From positions 1-49,518 of the forward strand of contig JAHJSA010000091.1 of NCBI GenBank assembly GCA_018830645.1: a DNA stretch of 49,518 nt. The letters run 5' to 3'. This document shows, in pieces, positions 18,437 to 49,293 of this stretch. A program made the translations under genes and the position numbers. The DNA comes from Actinomycetota bacterium (GTDB lineage Bacteria; Actinomycetota; Thermoleophilia; RBG-16-64-13). Below the pieces are notes generated by a model that was not told the DNA's origin, did not search any database, and saw nothing but the letters and a program-made list of their open reading frames with translations. Every line of letters begins with the position of its first letter. The first letter of the stretch is position 1.

Positions 18437-20113
18437 ATGCGGCGGTCGGCTCGCATGCCACACCAACCGAAGCTTCCGACCGAAGGACCGCCGAACGAGC
18501 GCCCAGGGGTGCCAGACGTGACATTCTCTGCCAAGACACACGACACGGCCGCGGTCCCGCCGGAGGACCACCCGCCGGAGGACCACCGACCGGCGCCCAC
18601 ACCGACGGCCCAGCGACAGCGCTCGAAGGCGCTCAGCCGGGGCGGCCCCATCCTCACGCGAGCCCGCGTGGCTCTGGTCTTCAAACTCGTGTGCGCTTCC
18701 GCTCTCACCGGCACCTTGCTCCTTTCGCCGCTCGACGCGTACCTCGGTCTGATCTTGGCAATCGGCTTCATGGCGGCCACCGTGCTGCTCGACTACTGGG
18801 TGTACCGCGCCGTGGGCGACCTGTTCAGGCGCCTGCAGGAGCGCAACCGCAAGGAAGCGCTCCGCGACGGAGCGGACGAGATCCACTCCGGCCTCGAACG
18901 GATGCTGGAGGGGGTCGTGAGCCGGAGCCCGGCCGAAGGTCTCGAGGTGGAGGCCGTCAGGGCCGATCTCTATCGCCTGCGCGACCTCAACAACCAGCTG
19001 ATCCGCTTGGGTGAGATCGCCCAGGAGTTGAACGCAGCCCTCCCCTACCGCGAGACCCGCACCAAGGCGTTGGGCCTCGCCCGACGTCTGCTCGCGGCCG
19101 ACATCGTGGCCCTGGTCGCTGAAGAGGGCGGCGAGTTCACGCTTGAGGGCGTCGACGGCTGCGAGGCAGGCGAGATCAACACCGCCTGCTGCGGCTACTA
19201 CAACCGATGCCCCGTACGTACGTCGTTCCGAGACGTCGAACGAGCGAGCACGGCGTCCCACCGGTGCGGCATGTTCCCACCGACCATGCGGGCTCAACTC
19301 TCCCTACCGTTCCGGCTCTCGGGCGCGCGCACGGTGGCATTGATCGCATCCGGGGCCCGACCCGGCGCTTTCGACGACCTGAGCGCCGTCGTGCTCGAGA
19401 CACTGGTGGGACACATCCACACGTCGCTTTCGACCGCCCTGAAATACGACCGCATCCGCCGCGAAGTGGTCACCGACCCGCTCACCAACCTCTACAACCG
19501 CCGATTCTTCGAGCAACGGGCACGTGAGGAGATCGAACGCAGCCTGCGACACCAGACCCCGCTCACGCTGCTGATGGTCGACGTGGACCATTTCAAGAAC
19601 ATCAACGACACCTACGGCCACCAGACCGGCGACCACGTTCTACAGAGCGTGGCCAAGTTCCTCAGCGACAGCGTTCGTCAGACGGATATCTGCGGCCGAT
19701 ACGGCGGCGAGGAGTTCGTCCTCCTGCTCCCGAACACCCCAGGCGGCAACGCGGTGTTCCTGGCCGACAGACTGCGTCGTGGCATTGCCGACCAACTCCA
19801 TACCGGCCTGGGGATCCCGGGCCACGTCTCCGTGACCGTGAGCGGCGGCGTGGCCACGTGCCCGCGCGACGCCACCGACGTGACCGAATTGATACGCCGC
19901 GCCGACGAGGCCCTCTACGACGCCAAGCGGTCGGGAAGGAACCGCATCGTCCAGGCGGGTCTGCCGGAGGCGGGAGCGCCCGAGGCGGGGGCGGCCGGGG
20001 TGCCCGCGGCAGAGGCGGAGTCGCCCACCCTGCTGGACGCCACACGAGTAACCCAGGCCCGCGCGAGCCGGGGCGGCGCGCGGGAGCCGGGACGCTTAGA
20101 CGATCAGAGGTAG
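18437..20113 (+). CDS. Membrane-bound diguanylate cyclase with Cys-rich GAF-like region
   Basis: Makes cyclic di-GMP from GTP. Residues about 1-70 are polar and low complexity; two membrane helices follow (about 75-130), then a coiled-coil-like linker, a GAF-like region (about 195-340) and a C-terminal GGDEF domain (about 350-520). The active-site loop is GGEEF and an RxxD product-inhibition site (RQTD) sits exactly five residues before it, so the enzyme should be active and feedback-inhibited. The GAF-like region has at least five cysteines within about 45 residues (CEAGEINTACCGYYNRC and HRCGMF), suggesting a metal, Fe-S or redox sensor. The 3' end overlaps the convergent CorA gene by 10 bp. 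Start chosen by the AGAAGGTGA site. Confidence 0.9.
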   Translation: MRRSARMPHQPKLPTEGPPNERPGVPDVTFSAKTHDTAAVPPEDHPPEDHRPAPTPTAQRQRSKALSRGGPILTRARVALVFKLVCASALTGTLLLSPLDAYLGLILAIGFMAATVLLDYWVYRAVGDLFRRLQERNRKEALRDGADEIHSGLERMLEGVVSRSPAEGLEVEAVRADLYRLRDLNNQLIRLGEIAQELNAALPYRETRTKALGLARRLLAADIVALVAEEGGEFTLEGVDGCEAGEINTACCGYYNRCPVRTSFRDVERASTASHRCGMFPPTMRAQLSLPFRLSGARTVALIASGARPGAFDDLSAVVLETLVGHIHTSLSTALKYDRIRREVVTDPLTNLYNRRFFEQRAREEIERSLRHQTPLTLLMVDVDHFKNINDTYGHQTGDHVLQSVAKFLSDSVRQTDICGRYGGEEFVLLLPNTPGGNAVFLADRLRRGIADQLHTGLGIPGHVSVTVSGGVATCPRDATDVTELIRRADEALYDAKRSGRNRIVQAGLPEAGAPEAGAAGVPAAEAESPTLLDATRVTQARASRGGAREPGRLDDQR

Positions 20114-28975: not shown

Positions 28976-29191
28976 ACTTGAGCGACCACTCACCTATCGG
29001 GTGCTCGGACCGTGGGCTTGTGCCCTCTGGGACAGACGTCGATCTCACCGCCAGACCGAAGAGCTGGGTGGCGCACCACCTGCAAGCATCGGGCCCCGGA
29101 CCGCGCCTACCGAAGCCCCAGACCCGATGCTAGTATGAACCGTTCGGCCGCCGGCCGGCGGCGTGGAACCTCGGACGACGGGGCTGTACTC

Positions 29192-32100
29192 ATGCGACCC
29201 ACTCTGACCGCCATCGAACGCGACCTGCGCGGACTCCTTCGGGGAGACGTGGAGTTCGACGCCGTGACCCGCCACCTCTATGCCACCGACGGCGGCATTT
29301 ACCAGATCGAGCCCATGGGCGTGGTGTCGCCGTTCGACGCCGAAGACGTCGCCAGACTGGTGGCCTATTGCACCGAGCGGGGCGTGCCGCTGGTGCCTCG
29401 AGGAGCCGGCTCCGGCCTCGCCGGCGCGGCGGTGGGCGCCGGCCTTATGGTCGACTTCACCCGCTACATGAACAAGATCCTCGAAGTGGCGCCCGACGGC
29501 TCGTGGGCCCGGGTGCAACCCGGCCTGGTGATGGGCGTGCTGAACGCGCACGTGAAGCGCTACGGCACCTTCTTCGCTCCCAACCCCTCCAGCGAGAACT
29601 ACTGCTCGCTCGGCGGGATGATCGCCAACAACTCGAGCGGGGGACGGAGCGTCGCCTACGGCGGTACGAAGGATCACGTGCTGGCCCTGGACGTGGTGCT
29701 CTCGGGCGGTGAGCTCTTCCACGCCGGCCCGGTGACGCGCGGCTCCGATGCCCTGGCGGCCGTGCTCGGTTCGGGCGGGCGCGCGGGCGCGGCCTTCGCC
29801 GACCTCCTGCCTCTCCTCGACCGGAAACGCGGCGCCGTCGCCACCTCCATGCCCCGGGTGATGAAGAACTGCTCGGGCTACCGGGTGGAGACCGTGCTCG
29901 AATGGGGCGCCGACGCCCCCGGCTACGGCGCCTACGACGGGGCGGCGGCCCTGGCCGCCGCCGACGCGGAGTGGACGCGGGCCAACCTGCAGAAGCTGTT
30001 CGTGGGCTCCGAGGGCACCCTGGGCCTCGTGACCGAAGCCACCCTCAACCTGGTGCCCCTTCCCGGGCGGCGCGCCATCGGCATGGCCTACTTCCCCACG
30101 GTGTTCAGCGCGGGCGAGGCGGTGCACCCCATCCTGGCGCTCAAGCCCAGCTCGCTCGAAATCATGGACGCGAACTTCCTGCGGTTCGTGCGCGAGAGCA
30201 ACTCCAAGATCGACGCCATGCTGCCCAAAGTGGTGGACACCGCGCTCCTCGTGGAGTTCGAGGCGGCGGACGACGCCGAACTCGAGGAGAAGTTGGCGTC
30301 GCTGGAGGGGCTGCTGGCCGGGGGCGACGCCCTCGAGGTGAAGCGCGCGCTCGACCCGGGCGACCAGAAGCAGCTCTGGGCCGTGCGCCAGGCGGCGGTG
30401 CCGCTCCTGCAGAAACTGCCGGGGCCGAAGAAGATCGTGGAGTTCATCGAGGACGCCACCGTACACCCCGAGGTGCTGGCCGACTACATGAGTCGCCTCA
30501 ACACCATCCTCCAGAGCCACGACGTGCGGGCCATCATGTACGGCCACGCCGGCGACGGCAACATCCACACACGGCCGATCCTGGATATGCGTAACCCCGG
30601 CGACCTCCGCCTCATGAACGAGATCATGGAAGAGGTCATGGAGGTGATCCTCGACCTCAAAGCCACTCCCTCCGGCGAGCACGGCGACGGGATCGTGCGC
30701 TCGCCCTACGTGCGGCGCGTCTACGGCGACGAGGTCTACGGCATCTTCGAGCGGATCAAGGAAGCCTTCGACCCCACCGGCATCATGAACCCGGGGAAGA
30801 AGGTGGTGAACCCGGCGGAGACCGGAGGCATCGCCACCAACCTCCGCTACGGCCGCGACTACTGGACCCACGAGCAGTCCACCCAGCTGCACTTCCCCGG
30901 CGGCGAATACGAGCGCGAGATCGAGAAGTGTCACGGCTGCGCCCAGTGCAAGAGCATGGTGGCCACCACCATGTGCCCCACCTACAAGGCCACCCGGCGC
31001 GAGCACGCCTCGCCGCGGGCCAAGGCCAACGCGCTGCGGAACATCATCAGTGGCCGCCTCGACCCCGGCCTGCACACCGGCGCCGCCTTGAAAGAGGTCA
31101 CCGACTACTGCATCGAGTGCGGCATGTGCGCTCTGGAGTGCCCGTCGAACGTGAACATCCCCAAGCTCATGCTGGAGGCCAAGGCCAAGTACCGCACCGC
31201 CCATGCGGGCGGCCCCACCGACCAAGTGCTGGGCCGCGCGGAGTTGGTGTCCAAGGTGAGCCGCGCGGCCTCCCCCGTGGTCAATCCGCTGGCCGCCAAC
31301 CGGGTGGTGCGCCGACTGGGCGAACGTCTGGCGGGCATAGACCACCGTCGCACCCTGCCCGCGTACGCCCGCAAGAGCTGGGAGCAGATGCTGGCCGAGC
31401 GCCGGAAGGGCGCCGTTAATCCGCACCCGGTGCCGGAGCCGGGCGCGGGCACCGAAGCGGTCGGCGTCGCCGGGAACCCCGGCGGCTCCGGGGGCTCCTC
31501 AGCCGGGGACTCCGCGGCCCCCGCCGTCGCCGCGCCGGCCGCCGCGCCCGCGGCCGCGAAGCCCGTGGCCTTCTTCTACGACGTCTACGCCAACTACAAC
31601 GACCCCGGCCTGGCCCAGACCTTCGACTCACTCCTGCGCGCTCACGGGGTGCCGGTGGTGTACCCGGAGCAGAAAGGAAGCGCCGTCCCGGAGATGCTCT
31701 ACGGCTACATGGATCGGGCCCGGGCCACCGCCGAGTTCAACGTGCGGCACGCACTACCTCACGTGCGCGACGGAGCGTACGTCGTAAGCGGCGAGCCCAC
31801 GGCGAGCTTCGCCTTCAAGGTGCACTACCCCGACATCGTTTCCAGCGAGGACTGCTCCCTGGTGGCCAACGCAACCCGCGACCTGGGCGAGTTCCTGGTC
31901 TCGCGCCGTACGGAGCGCCCGGAGGCGGCGCCCCGACCGGTCGCGGATATCAAGCTCAAGATCGCTTATCACCAGCCCTGTCACCTGAAGACACAGCAGG
32001 TGGGCTCGCCCTTCTTCGACCTGCTCGAGGAGGTGCCGGGTCTGGAGCTGGTGAACCTGGACGCGGGCTGCTGCGGCATGGCCGGCACCTTCGGCATGAA

Positions 32101-32278
32101 GGCGGGCACCTTCGACCTCAGCATGGAGACCGGCCGCCCGCTGTTCGAGCGGGTGACGGACGTGTCCCCCGACCTGGTGGCTTCGGAGTGCAGCACCTGC
32201 CGCATGCAGTTGGCCCAGGCGACAGGCAAAGACACGGTGCATCCGGCGGAGCTGCTGGCCCGCGCCTACGGGATCTAG
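29192..32278 (+). CDS. Fused FAD-linked oxidase / Fe-S subunit (GlcD-GlcF type, glycolate or D-lactate dehydrogenase)
   Basis: A protein of 1028 aa from the ATG at 29192 (MRPTLTAIERDLRGLL), with an in-frame ATG at 29135 as alternative. The N-terminal half is a VAO-type FAD-binding oxidase: FDAEDVARLVAYC, VPRGAGSGLAGAAVGAG, NNSSGGRSVAYGGTKDHV, FVGSEGTLGLVTEATL and, later, GHAGDGNIH and EHGDG. The C-terminal half has two 4Fe-4S clusters (CHGCAQCKSM and CIECGMCALECP), an Ala/Pro/Gly-rich linker, and CCG-type domains (CCGMAGTFGMK near the end). Such fusions oxidise 2-hydroxyacids and feed electrons to the chain or to a flavoprotein. The lactate racemase homologue 12 bp downstream points to lactate as substrate, which is an inference. 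Confidence 0.92.
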   Translation: MRPTLTAIERDLRGLLRGDVEFDAVTRHLYATDGGIYQIEPMGVVSPFDAEDVARLVAYCTERGVPLVPRGAGSGLAGAAVGAGLMVDFTRYMNKILEVAPDGSWARVQPGLVMGVLNAHVKRYGTFFAPNPSSENYCSLGGMIANNSSGGRSVAYGGTKDHVLALDVVLSGGELFHAGPVTRGSDALAAVLGSGGRAGAAFADLLPLLDRKRGAVATSMPRVMKNCSGYRVETVLEWGADAPGYGAYDGAAALAAADAEWTRANLQKLFVGSEGTLGLVTEATLNLVPLPGRRAIGMAYFPTVFSAGEAVHPILALKPSSLEIMDANFLRFVRESNSKIDAMLPKVVDTALLVEFEAADDAELEEKLASLEGLLAGGDALEVKRALDPGDQKQLWAVRQAAVPLLQKLPGPKKIVEFIEDATVHPEVLADYMSRLNTILQSHDVRAIMYGHAGDGNIHTRPILDMRNPGDLRLMNEIMEEVMEVILDLKATPSGEHGDGIVRSPYVRRVYGDEVYGIFERIKEAFDPTGIMNPGKKVVNPAETGGIATNLRYGRDYWTHEQSTQLHFPGGEYEREIEKCHGCAQCKSMVATTMCPTYKATRREHASPRAKANALRNIISGRLDPGLHTGAALKEVTDYCIECGMCALECPSNVNIPKLMLEAKAKYRTAHAGGPTDQVLGRAELVSKVSRAASPVVNPLAANRVVRRLGERLAGIDHRRTLPAYARKSWEQMLAERRKGAVNPHPVPEPGAGTEAVGVAGNPGGSGGSSAGDSAAPAVAAPAAAPAAAKPVAFFYDVYANYNDPGLAQTFDSLLRAHGVPVVYPEQKGSAVPEMLYGYMDRARATAEFNVRHALPHVRDGAYVVSGEPTASFAFKVHYPDIVSSEDCSLVANATRDLGEFLVSRRTERPEAAPRPVADIKLKIAYHQPCHLKTQQVGSPFFDLLEEVPGLELVNLDAGCCGMAGTFGMKAGTFDLSMETGRPLFERVTDVSPDLVASECSTCRMQLAQATGKDTVHPAELLARAYGI

Positions 32279-32290
32279 GAAGGAGGAGCG

Positions 32291-33547
32291 ATGTACATCG
32301 ACGTACCCTGGGATACAGGCTCGGTGCCCCTGAAGCTGGACAGGGACAGGTTGGGCGAGGTCATCGAGTCTCGCACGCTCAAAGTGCGCGACGAGGCTGC
32401 CCACCTGAATGCGATCCTCGCCGGCCGCGACGGACGCCCTTCGTTCGACGAGTTCCTCGACTCCGCCGAGGGCCGCATCCTCTTCTTGGTGAACGACGCC
32501 ACCCGGCCGACTCCCAGCGGGCGCGTCATCGAGATCATCGCCGACAGGCTCCGCGGCCGCGACGTGGAGTTCATGGTCGCCACTGGAGCCCACAAGTTGC
32601 CCGGCGAGACCGAGCTCGAACAGATCTTCGGCAGGAACATGCGCGAGCGCTTCATCGACCGCATCTCGAGTCACGACGCGCGCGACAAGGCTTCCCTCGT
32701 ACACCTGGGAGAGACGTCGCGAGGCACCCCGGTGTGGGTGAACCGCCACTTGGCCGACGCCACTGATGTGGTGCTCATCAACTCTGTCGAACCCCACTAT
32801 TTCGCCGGCTACACCGGGGGCCGCAAGTCGATCTTCCCGGGTGTGGCGGGCTTCGCCACCATCGAGGGCAACCACAAGCTGGCGCTGGACCCCGCAGCCG
32901 ACAACCTGGCGCTCGAGGGCAACCCCGTGCACGAGGACATGATGGAGATGATGGGCATGCTCTCGGAGAAGCGCATGTACTCCATCCAGATGGTGCTCGA
33001 TCACCAACACCGCATCCACTACGCCTACGCGGGCGACCTCGAGGAGAGCTGGCGCACGGCGGTCGAGCACGCCGACGGGCACTACGTGGTCGAGTTGAAC
33101 ACGCGCTACGACATCGTGGTAGCGGCGGCTCCCTATCCCATGGACTACGACCTCTACCAGTCGCAGAAGGCCCTCGAGAACGGATCTCTTGCCCTGAAGG
33201 ACGGGGGCATCCTCATCCTGGTCTCGAAATGCCGCCACGGCATCGGCGACGAGACCTTCTTCACCCTGATGGCCAAGGCCGCCACCCCCGACCAGGTGCT
33301 CTCCTCGATCCTGGGCGACTACGTCCTCGGCTTCCACAAGGCCGGCCGCCTGGCCCTGATCGCCAAGCGCGGGGAGATGTGGGGCGTCACCAGCCTCCCC
33401 GACGAAGACCTCGAGGCCGCCTTCATCCGACCGTTCCCCAGCGTGCAGAGAGCCGTGGACGCCGCACTCGCCCGGAAGGGCCCGGAGGCCAAGGTGCTCT
33501 TCCTGATGGACGCCTCGATCACCGTGCCGCGGGTGAACGGGGGGTAG
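32291..33547 (+). CDS. LarA-type nickel-pincer racemase (lactate racemase homologue)
   Basis: A 418-aa protein of the LarA family (DUF2088), which uses a covalently bound nickel pincer nucleotide for hydride-transfer racemisation. Residues matching the L. plantarum enzyme are visible: R72 (DATRPTP), H101 (GAHK), H169 (EPHYFAGYTGGRKS), K179 (the lysine that holds the cofactor) and H195 (GNHKL). The genes that make the cofactor (larB, larC, larE) are not in the window and must be elsewhere if it is active. Start ATG has AGGAAGGAGG upstream, in a short gap after the oxidase, so the two are probably one operon. Homologues act on other 2-hydroxyacids, so the substrate remains open. Confidence 0.9.
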   Translation: MYIDVPWDTGSVPLKLDRDRLGEVIESRTLKVRDEAAHLNAILAGRDGRPSFDEFLDSAEGRILFLVNDATRPTPSGRVIEIIADRLRGRDVEFMVATGAHKLPGETELEQIFGRNMRERFIDRISSHDARDKASLVHLGETSRGTPVWVNRHLADATDVVLINSVEPHYFAGYTGGRKSIFPGVAGFATIEGNHKLALDPAADNLALEGNPVHEDMMEMMGMLSEKRMYSIQMVLDHQHRIHYAYAGDLEESWRTAVEHADGHYVVELNTRYDIVVAAAPYPMDYDLYQSQKALENGSLALKDGGILILVSKCRHGIGDETFFTLMAKAATPDQVLSSILGDYVLGFHKAGRLALIAKRGEMWGVTSLPDEDLEAAFIRPFPSVQRAVDAALARKGPEAKVLFLMDASITVPRVNGG

Positions 33548-46381: not shown

Positions 46382-47416
46382 CTATCCCGTCGCCGCCCGA
46401 GCCGCCCGCAGCGCGGCATCCACTCCGAGTGCCTCCACATCCTTGTGCGTGACGAAACGCACGCGGGTCGCACCCACTGCCCCCGCGCGCACCCCCGCCG
46501 CCGCCAAGCCGGCCACGAACGAGGCCGCGTCCAGACCGCGCGCGACGACCTCCACGAACACCATGTTGGTCTGCACTGTCTCGAGATCCACGTCCAGTCC
46601 AGGGATACCGGCCAGCCCCTCGGCCAGCCGCCGCGCGTTCGCGTGATCCTCGGCGAGACGTTCCACCATGGTCTCGAGGGCCACGATCCCGGCCGCCGCC
46701 AACACGCCCACCTGGCGCAGGCCGCCGCCCAACATCTTGCGGGCGCGGCGGGCCTCGGCGATCCAATCCGCCGGTCCCGCCAGCATCGACCCCACCGGAG
46801 CGCAGAGACCCTTTGAGAGACAGAACATCACGGAATCCGCGTGGGCCGCGATCTCGGCCGCGGGCACCCCCAGGGCCACCGAGGCGTTGAAAAGCCGCGC
46901 GCCATCGAGGTGCACCACCAGACCGCCACGGCGCGCCGTGGCGCAGAGCTCGGCCATCAGGGCGAGGGGAGCGACCGTGCCGCCCCCGAAGTTGTGCGGA
47001 TTCTCCAGACACAGCAGGCGGCTGCGGGGAAAGTGCACGTCGTCGGGACGGATCGCGGACTCCACCTGCTCCGACCGCAGTAGACCCTTGGCGCTCTCGA
47101 GTGGGCGGGCCTGGACGCCGGAGAGGACGGCCAAGCCGCCCACCTCGGCGTCGTACACGTGGGAGGTGAGGTCGCAGATCACCTCGTCGCCGCGGCGGGT
47201 GTGCGTGAGCACCGCGATGCCGTTGCCCATGGTGCCACTCGGCACGAAGAGGGCCGCTTCCTTGCCCACGCGCTCGGCCGCCAGCTCTTCCAGGCGGCGC
47301 ACCGTAGGATCCTCCCCGTAGACGTCGTCGCCGAGTTCGGCCGTTGCCATCGCCCGCAGCATCTCAGGCGTGGGAAGGGTGACGGTGTCGCTGCGCAGAT
47401 CGACGACCGCGCTCAC
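46382..47416 (-). CDS. ltaE: Low-specificity threonine aldolase
   Basis: A 344-aa PLP enzyme that splits threonine (or allo-threonine) into glycine and acetaldehyde. Family blocks are VDLRSDTVTLPTPEML, the HLDGARLFNA motif (169-178) and K202 in FCLSKGLCAPVGS, with NFGGGTVAP before it. GTG start overlaps the aldehyde oxidoreductase stop by 4 nt. Product acetaldehyde is a suitable substrate for that neighbour. Confidence 0.93.
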   Translation of the reverse strand: MSAVVDLRSDTVTLPTPEMLRAMATAELGDDVYGEDPTVRRLEELAAERVGKEAALFVPSGTMGNGIAVLTHTRRGDEVICDLTSHVYDAEVGGLAVLSGVQARPLESAKGLLRSEQVESAIRPDDVHFPRSRLLCLENPHNFGGGTVAPLALMAELCATARRGGLVVHLDGARLFNASVALGVPAAEIAAHADSVMFCLSKGLCAPVGSMLAGPADWIAEARRARKMLGGGLRQVGVLAAAGIVALETMVERLAEDHANARRLAEGLAGIPGLDVDLETVQTNMVFVEVVARGLDAASFVAGLAAAGVRAGAVGATRVRFVTHKDVEALGVDAALRAARAATG

Positions 47417-49293
47417 CCCTCCGCGCCTCCATCTCCCCGGAGGCCCAGCTCGGCGAGCTTGGCCGGGGTGGGCAGGCCGGTGGCCACGTCCCAGCCGCGC
47501 GCCTCGTAGTATTCGTCGAGCATCTGGTCGAGGTCGACCATCGCCCCGGCCGACGGGCTGTCGGACGGCCCCAGGGGCTCCTCCAGGAAGCGGCGGGGCA
47601 GGGTGTCGTCCTTGCGGGTGACGCCCTCACGGGCGATGAAGAGCCGCTCGAGGTTGACGATACGCTCGCCCGCCTGCCGCACCTCCTCGCCGGTCATATC
47701 CCAGCCGGTCGAGGCGTTCAGGAGGTCGGCGGTCTCCTGCCAGTCGAGCACCTCCATGTTGTTGTAGGTGTTCTTACAGACCCCCAGGGAGTCGCAGACG
47801 GCGGCCATCTCCTCGAAGTGCTTGACCACACGACCTTTGCCTGTGTGCTCCAGGCGGAAGGCCGACTCGGCCACGCCGTAGCGGCGGATACCCTCCTCGG
47901 CGTCGCCCGAGAACTCGAACCAGGGCTCGGAGCGCAGGTGGTCGGCGCCTCGGCTGGAGACCGCGTTGCCGAGGGCGTAGGCCTTGACGGTGCGCGGGTC
48001 GGCCTGGAACACCTCGAGGCCCTTGGAATGCATGGCGATCTCCTCAGAGCCGCCACCCACCCGCGCGGCCGCCGCGCGTACTCCGTCGGCCAGCACGTCG
48101 CCGAATCCTTCCCGGCGCATGATCTTGTCGATCAGAGCCAGAACCGCCTCCATGTTCCCCCAGGAGAGGTCGAGACCGTCGGTATCCGCAGGCGTGAGGA
48201 TGCCCCGTTCCTGGCACTCCATCGTCCACGAGATCACCTCGCTGAGAGCGATAGCGTCCATACCGTAGCGGTTGGCCAGGTCGATGCAACGCAGGGCGAA
48301 GGCAAGATCACCGTTGCCTATGCGCGAGGTGAACCCGGCGAGGGGCTCGTACTCCGGTCCCTCGAGCTTGAGTCCGGGGAAACGGGGATCGTCCACCACC
48401 AAGAAGCGGCTGCAGGGGATGGTGCACGAGAAGCACGCCTTGCTCTTCACCTTGAAGCGCGCTTCGATCGTCTCGCCGCTCACCTGGTCGGCGTATTCGA
48501 AACGGCCCTCCTTGAAGTGCCGAGTAACGATGCCGCCGATGCCGTTCATCGCCTTCACCAGCTTGGTCGTGCCGAGACGCACCCTGATCTCGTACTCTTC
48601 GTGCGAGTAGATGCGCTCATCGACCATGTCGATCAACCGCTGGAATCGCGCCATGTCGGCCACCGGCACCGTCCCGGTGCCCCGCACGGCCACGGCCTTC
48701 AGGTTCTTGGAGGCCATGAGTGACCCCATGCCCGTACGGGCGGCAGCCCGCACCAGGTTGGAGAAGACCCCGGCGAAACGCACCCCGTTCTCCGCCGCGG
48801 GACCGATCACCGCCGTCTGCACGTCGCGGTCGCCGAGCGCGGCCCGGATGGCCTCGGTGGTCTCGGTGACGTCGAGTCCCCAGAGACCGGAGGCGTCGCG
48901 CAGCTCCACCCAGTCGTCCCACACCACCAGATAGACCGGGCTCTCGGCGCGGCCTTCCACGATCAGTTGATCCACGCCCGCGAACTTGAGCTCGGGGCCG
49001 AAGAAACCGCCGGCGTTGGAGTCGCCCAAGATGCCGGTCTGCGGCGACATGCCGCTCACGTTGAAGCGGGAGCCACCGGGGAAGAGCGAGCCCGCCAGCG
49101 GTCCCACCCCGAAGATCAACTTGTTCTCGGGAGCCAGCCCGTCGGTGTGGGCCGGCACCTCGTCCCACAGGCGCTTCACGTTGAGGCCGCGTCCACCCAG
49201 GAAAGAACGGGCTTCCGCCGGATCGACGGGTTGCCGGGTGATCGCTCCGGTCGTGAGGTCGACGCGCAAGATGGAGCCGCCGTAGCCGTTCAC
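47413..49293 (-). CDS. Aldehyde:ferredoxin oxidoreductase (tungsten/pterin type)
   Basis: A 626-aa AOR-family enzyme that oxidises aldehydes to acids and reduces ferredoxin. The N-terminal part has GGRGLNVKRLWDEV and SGMSPQTGILGDSNAGGFFG; the pterin-binding ARTGMGSLMASKNLKAVAVR follows. The 4Fe-4S ligands are C287, C290, C294 (CFSCTIPC) and C506 (SLGVCKN). All are present. The enzyme needs a bis-pterin W or Mo cofactor; moeA elsewhere in the window supports that pathway. No dedicated ferredoxin is nearby. GTG start with AAGGAGGGGG upstream, overlapping a possible upstream gene end (GTGA) and coupled downstream to ltaE. Confidence 0.94.
   Translation of the reverse strand: MNGYGGSILRVDLTTGAITRQPVDPAEARSFLGGRGLNVKRLWDEVPAHTDGLAPENKLIFGVGPLAGSLFPGGSRFNVSGMSPQTGILGDSNAGGFFGPELKFAGVDQLIVEGRAESPVYLVVWDDWVELRDASGLWGLDVTETTEAIRAALGDRDVQTAVIGPAAENGVRFAGVFSNLVRAAARTGMGSLMASKNLKAVAVRGTGTVPVADMARFQRLIDMVDERIYSHEEYEIRVRLGTTKLVKAMNGIGGIVTRHFKEGRFEYADQVSGETIEARFKVKSKACFSCTIPCSRFLVVDDPRFPGLKLEGPEYEPLAGFTSRIGNGDLAFALRCIDLANRYGMDAIALSEVISWTMECQERGILTPADTDGLDLSWGNMEAVLALIDKIMRREGFGDVLADGVRAAAARVGGGSEEIAMHSKGLEVFQADPRTVKAYALGNAVSSRGADHLRSEPWFEFSGDAEEGIRRYGVAESAFRLEHTGKGRVVKHFEEMAAVCDSLGVCKNTYNNMEVLDWQETADLLNASTGWDMTGEEVRQAGERIVNLERLFIAREGVTRKDDTLPRRFLEEPLGPSDSPSAGAMVDLDQMLDEYYEARGWDVATGLPTPAKLAELGLRGDGGAEG

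Follow-up and report, generated by a model that had tools for sequence, protein, structure and literature searches.

The window, by which we mean the whole stretch of 49,518 nucleotides analysed here (contig JAHJSA010000091.1 of assembly GCA_018830645.1, Actinomycetota), carries a putative diguanylate cyclase gene on its forward strand with the following layout.

18437..20113, + strand: putative diguanylate cyclase open reading frame, 558 aa, ATG start, stop included
18665..18805, + strand: predicted transmembrane hairpin with a very short (outer) loop, residues about 77-123, from hydropathy only
18932..19030, + strand: helical/coil segment ahead of the GAF core, residues 166-198, a helix in the AlphaFold2 model and conserved in the alignment
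19031..19441, + strand: GAF-like sensor domain, residues about 199-335, from profile matches, the AlphaFold2 model and fold comparison
19469..19945, + strand: GGDEF domain, residues 345-503, Pfam PF00990, E 1.9e-50
19676..19687, + strand: I-site R414-Q-T-D417, read from the sequence; RxxD in 17/17 orthologue rows
19703..19717, + strand: GGEEF signature, residues 423-427, read from the sequence

With a PF00990 score of 171 bits against a cut-off of 23.8 and an intact GGEEF signature, membership of the GGDEF family (Pfam) is certain, and the 558-residue product is, as judged from its sequence, a diguanylate cyclase with predicted enzyme activity. The RQTD I-site named in the original prediction is present five residues ahead of GGEEF, and both R414 and D417 belong to the invariant columns in an alignment of 13 orthologues. 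As the hairpin precedes them, the GAF and GGEEF domains are predicted to be cytosolic. We also observed that two cysteines inside the GGDEF domain, C419 (19691-19693) and C475 (19859-19861), are present in all 17 orthologues; a cysteine at the C419 position is rare elsewhere (4 of 87 other diguanylate cyclase frames).

The protein contains eight cysteines, at residues 86, 242, 251, 252, 258, 277, 419 and 475. The original prediction placed a cysteine cluster ahead of the GGDEF domain at 19140-19290, and this cluster is real: five GAF cysteines lie within that interval at 19160-19267, in the arrangement C242-x8-C251-C252-x5-C258-x16-H275-R-C277, where H275 is the one histidine in residues 241-280. 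The motif was given as C-x9-CC-x5-C, a spacing that reaches the second cysteine of the pair, and is corrected to C-x8-CC-x5-C; likewise, the cluster spans 36 residues rather than about 45. In 200,000 random placements of the eight cysteines, 561 (0.0028) had at least five of them within 36 residues. The residues of the cluster and their occurrence among 17 orthologues are as follows.

19160..19162, + strand: C242, 5/17, family f1 only
19187..19192, + strand: C251 and C252, 16/17 each, at least one of the pair in 17/17
19208..19210, + strand: C258, 17/17, followed by proline in 16/17
19259..19261, + strand: H275, 15/17
19265..19267, + strand: C277, 17/17

These orthologues were collected in two steps. 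A search of 61 genomes with the full-length protein gave thirteen (L001-L013), and a profile of their 13 sensor regions (A2) was then run on genomes of the class, the family and a sample of the phylum. Carriers amount to at least 17 of 399 class genomes, 5 of the 18 genomes in the window's own family, and at least 1 of 396 in the phylum sample, this one being the window's own genome; in the class and phylum searches the candidates scored per genome were capped at 8, which leaves room for misses, and the family search scored every candidate. The 17 carriers span 9 genera and two families (f1, n = 5; f3, n = 12), and each encodes a GGDEF domain within the same reading frame. L031, the same protein as L004, was left out of the counts, and L111-L113, L115, L116 and L119-L126 repeat loci already counted. 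Mean pairwise identity of the 17 orthologues is 49% over the coil plus GAF region and 69% over the GGDEF domain.

The conservation of the cysteines, on which the original prediction depended, thus holds for C251/C252, C258 and C277 and fails for C242. Losses in the pair are only two and occur in different members (L013 lacks C252, and C251 is Asp in L127); H275 is replaced by Ala in L005 and shifted in L013. Because C242 and H275 are not kept throughout, we take CC-x5-C-x18-C as the conserved unit, and the five cysteines plus histidine are ruled out as a functional unit. In all 17 proteins, three conserved cysteines (C251 or C252, C258 and C277) are available as candidate ligands.

Cysteine density was compared with that of other diguanylate cyclases of the class. 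Among the control loci L014-L030 (n = 17), 10 comparable upstream regions were counted (L015, L016, L017, L025 and L029, with no usable open reading frame, as well as L024 and L030, were left out), and 9 of these never exceed 2 cysteines per 36 residues. The tenth, L018, has 5 in 36 residues in a different motif, CWEVKKC...NCPVY; this class cyclase (L018:1-2049, + strand) reads CWEVKKC...NCPVY...RCW...YC before its GGDEF domain, on a stretch that no Pfam family matches. In a further control of 65 regions from L032-L110, the maximum per 36 residues was 0 or 1 in 56, 2 in 4, 3 in 3 and 4 in 2.

The claim that the cluster sits in a GAF-like domain is borne out by profile matches, an AlphaFold2 model and fold comparison, with a Pfam match below cut-off. 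GAF_2 matches the window's domain at E 0.017 (18.1 bits, cut-off 28.6) and 4 of the 13 members at E up to 1, the best at 9.3e-5. An NCBIfam search of the 13 members gave none above cut-off and a single weak NorR match (E 0.0083), and a PDB search with the A2 profile returned mostly chance matches (ig-h3) plus the weak GAF matches 3ci6 and 6oap. The A2 profile also aligns over the whole domain with ordinary GAF-GGDEF proteins of the class, such as L014 and L021 (domain E 2e-5 for L021). The AlphaFold2 model built from an eight-row alignment reached a pTM of 0.74 and, compared with solved GAF domains, matched 5hl6 best (Z 14.6), with MsrC-type reductases and phytochromes also matching; since the input alignment included GAF proteins, this fold result is not independent of the choice of alignment. 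The model from two rows had a mean pLDDT of 38.8.

By the eight-row model and the fold comparison the sensor domain has a GAF fold in which the cysteine loop is placed at low confidence. Model residue n corresponds to protein residue n+168, and pLDDT falls below 50 at model residues 90-108, a stretch that begins at C258 and stops just before C277, so that ligand geometry is not readable from the model. The cysteines are mostly located where the model has no regular secondary structure.

The best-supported step in our interpretation is that constraint acts on a cysteine core within a cytosolic GAF domain, which a helix joins directly to the GGDEF domain. Beyond it, we tentatively favour, with a probability of roughly 0.45, a reading in which the conserved cysteines bind a metal centre, most likely iron-sulfur, that senses redox, oxygen or nitric oxide, and we place a structural zinc second and a thiol-disulfide switch third. 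The CC-x5-C-x18-C loop, usually with a histidine two residues before the last cysteine, would occupy the place of the ordinary GAF ligand-pocket helix and loop, and three or four of its residues would bind a single centre, most likely an iron-sulfur cluster. Oxidation, loss or nitrosylation of the cluster would alter the GAF conformation, the GAF-GGDEF joining helix would pass the change to the cyclase, and the RxxD site would provide product inhibition, all in a protein predicted to be anchored in the membrane with its GAF domain in the cytosol. The analysis itself shows the order of the domains, conservation of the cysteine core, the GAF fold by model, and the motifs for catalysis and inhibition; metal binding, the identity of the metal, the signal sensed and the direction in which the cyclase responds are what we infer here. 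CC-x5-C-x18-C was not recognised as a known iron-sulfur motif in any of our analyses.

Zinc would fit nearly as well as iron-sulfur. Three cysteines with His275 or a fourth cysteine would then hold a zinc ion that steadies a loop no longer having the regular GAF structure, and the sensed ligand would be something else. A Cys3-plus-His or Cys4 set exists in 17/17 proteins if the fourth ligand may vary, the loop lacks regular secondary structure in the model, and the CZB domain offers a precedent, in another fold, for a zinc-binding input of diguanylate cyclases (in the part of PMC8846402 on such inputs). Against this, the fourth ligand would indeed have to vary, given L005 and L013, and we regard a purely structural zinc as unlikely, while ranking it ahead of the remaining alternatives.

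Next in order comes a thiol-disulfide switch of the GAF pocket that needs no metal and would respond to peroxide or to disulfides of low molecular weight. Its model would be the cysteine-based free methionine-R-sulfoxide reductases (fRMsr; MsrC/YebR), which combine a GAF fold with redox cysteines and differ in being enzymes, not sensors. In E. coli MsrC, C66-x9-C76 has the spacing of C242-x9-C252; MAFFT pairs C252 with MsrC C76 in two of three modes and C277 with MsrC C100 in one, and the fRMsr structures 1vhm, 3mmh, 3rfb and 3ksf, together with 8dgd, which we take to be one as well, rank in the top 50 of the fold comparison. However, position matching to MsrC varies with the alignment mode, hhalign to MsrC covers the C-terminal half only (E 0.14), and the C242 equivalent is absent from 12 of 17 orthologues. 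The three cysteines of fRMsr are thus not all found, the remaining ones being alignment-dependent, and we rejected fRMsr membership. Moreover, cytosolic thiols are usually in the reduced state. We favour a metal site over a plain disulfide because C258 and C277 are accompanied by a third cysteine in every orthologue, and the switch seems to us improbable.

That the cysteines are kept for folding or by descent only, with the GAF domain binding an unrelated small molecule, is more improbable still. Strict invariance is indeed not significantly enriched among them (2 of the 5 GAF cysteines fall in the 22 invariant columns of 156; hypergeometric P 0.15), and the domain has many other residues, not cysteines, that are just as invariant; yet four clustered cysteines occur at 16-17/17 where 9 of 10 class controls have at most two per 36 residues. 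Least probable of all is a cofactor known from other GAF sensors, either haem held through Cys258-Pro259 or a covalently attached bilin. The Cys-Pro dipeptide (16/17 orthologues) and the many phytochromes among the fold matches speak for it, although the latter may reflect the common fold only; against it, three or four cysteines are more than haem or bilin needs, and H275 is absent in 2/17.

Returning to the metal centre, several sensors with iron in or near a GAF domain can be set beside the window's protein. AirS (YhcS), a Staphylococcus aureus sensor kinase, has a GAF domain. Its [2Fe-2S] cluster is assigned, in the passages of PMC4601167 on this kinase, to C-x7-C-x-C-x17-C, which, compared by printed spacing only, resembles C-x8-CC-x5-C-x18-C as a cysteine cluster in the N-terminal region; AirS differs in its histidine kinase output and middle spacing, and the first cysteine is dispensable in our family. 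NorR also houses iron in a GAF domain, and its NCBIfam model weakly matched one of the 13 members; its mononuclear non-haem iron, which senses nitric oxide, is held by Arg, three Asp and one Cys (passages on NorR in PMC4601167), unlike the cysteine core described here. The same source, where it treats NreB, gives a [4Fe-4S] cluster in a PAS domain. The chloroplast sensor kinase CSK and Hik2 carry a [3Fe-4S] cluster with one ligand cysteine within the GAF domain and have a redox-controlled output (corresponding passages of PMC6949291); the likeness is a GAF-located iron-sulfur ligand cysteine, a candidate one in our case, and the difference a single tested cysteine ligand, the lack of a cysteine motif and a kinase output. 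The GAF passages of PMC8063818 cover haem.

A look-alike closer in output was found in Geomonas (L032, 4533-5039), where a GAF domain before GGDEF reads DHCWAMRLGQPH...RCQH. Used as a tblastn query, it matched 46 plasmid records; in 5 of the 6 records inspected (L129-L134) C-[WF]-x-L-x-x-G is followed by C-x-H, and L130 has both cysteines without the histidine. This C-W/F-A-L-R-R-G...C-x-H subtype ahead of GGDEF is widespread over several phyla (Rhizobium, cyanobacteria, Vibrio, Nitrobacter, Geomonas), and we know of no function for it. It shares with the window's domain two cysteines in the corresponding stretch, with x18 in L032 as in C258-x18-C277, and differs in lacking the CC pair and in having CxH where the window has HxC; similarity is too low for a settled alignment, and as the alignments disagree on which window cysteines are paired, we call it a look-alike and not a shown relative. 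The window's own domain, as a plasmid tblastn query, found one Deinococcus diguanylate cyclase (34.6% over 42%) without the cluster.

The genome neighbourhood differs between f1 and f3 and gives no common function. In f1 (5/5), an M28-type peptidase frame precedes the gene, a CorA transporter follows, and an FAD oxidase/CCG protein lies downstream (Pfam). In f3, for six of the twelve carriers (L139-L144), a histidine kinase gene, PilS-like/GAF, is upstream in 6/6, and a stand-alone receiver gene lies between kinase and cyclase in at least 3/6 by motif (Pfam-confirmed in L142). From these neighbours at six f3 and five f1 loci, the cyclase adjoins a two-component system in f3 and not in f1. Within the window we also noted an FAD oxidase fused to Fe-S/CCG domains (29012-32278, +), a lactate racemase LarA-like gene (32291-33547, +) and an aldehyde ferredoxin oxidoreductase gene (47413-49293, -).

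The argument that a redox input would suit an anaerobe is weak: the window's genome encodes a haem-copper oxidase and cytochrome bd, so that the host is probably not a strict anaerobe, though it also has the aldehyde ferredoxin oxidoreductase gene. COX1 matches occur in 11/17 carrier genomes and cytochrome bd in 15/17, with at least one of the two in 16/17, and we rejected the strict-anaerobe reasoning. [FeFe]-hydrogenase-type domains are found in 12/17 carriers (12/12 in f3, none in f1). For an organism that meets oxygen, sensing redox state or oxygen would nevertheless be sensible. The exception, G003 (98% complete), has neither COX1 nor cytochrome bd matches; its orthologue is L005, with Ala for His275, a single case.

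The inputs of most diguanylate cyclases are, to our knowledge, unknown. A review of cyclic di-GMP inputs names bilin, haem, CZB zinc, hemerythrin and periplasmic disulfide, and the term iron-sulfur is absent from its main text (PMC8846402). Our literature search, over titles and abstract openings, found no paper on a diguanylate cyclase with an iron-sulfur, metal or thiol GAF domain; within the reach of that search, the reading proposed here, if true, would give the first GAF-housed iron-sulfur input to such an enzyme. It would tie cyclic di-GMP to the redox state of the cytosol in an actinobacterial class that has received little study and whose members possess terminal oxidases as well as enzymes of the oxygen-sensitive type. 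The cysteine GAF, being conserved and a single domain, lends itself to expression and testing in a single experiment. The fuller proposal, that the CC-x5-C-x18-C GAF with an iron-sulfur cluster would be a clade-restricted subtype through which oxygen, nitric oxide or redox in the cytosol directly gates cyclic di-GMP synthesis, is more doubtful than the metal centre as such. Another kind of iron-sulfur architecture appeared among the control loci: in Actinomycetota bacterium Yes70-03 (L074:3627-5525, + strand), one 633-residue frame ending in GGDEF carries, N-terminal to it, 4Fe-4S domains, an [FeFe]-hydrogenase large-subunit C-terminal domain and an FeS domain, and is possibly a hydrogen- or redox-sensing diguanylate cyclase.
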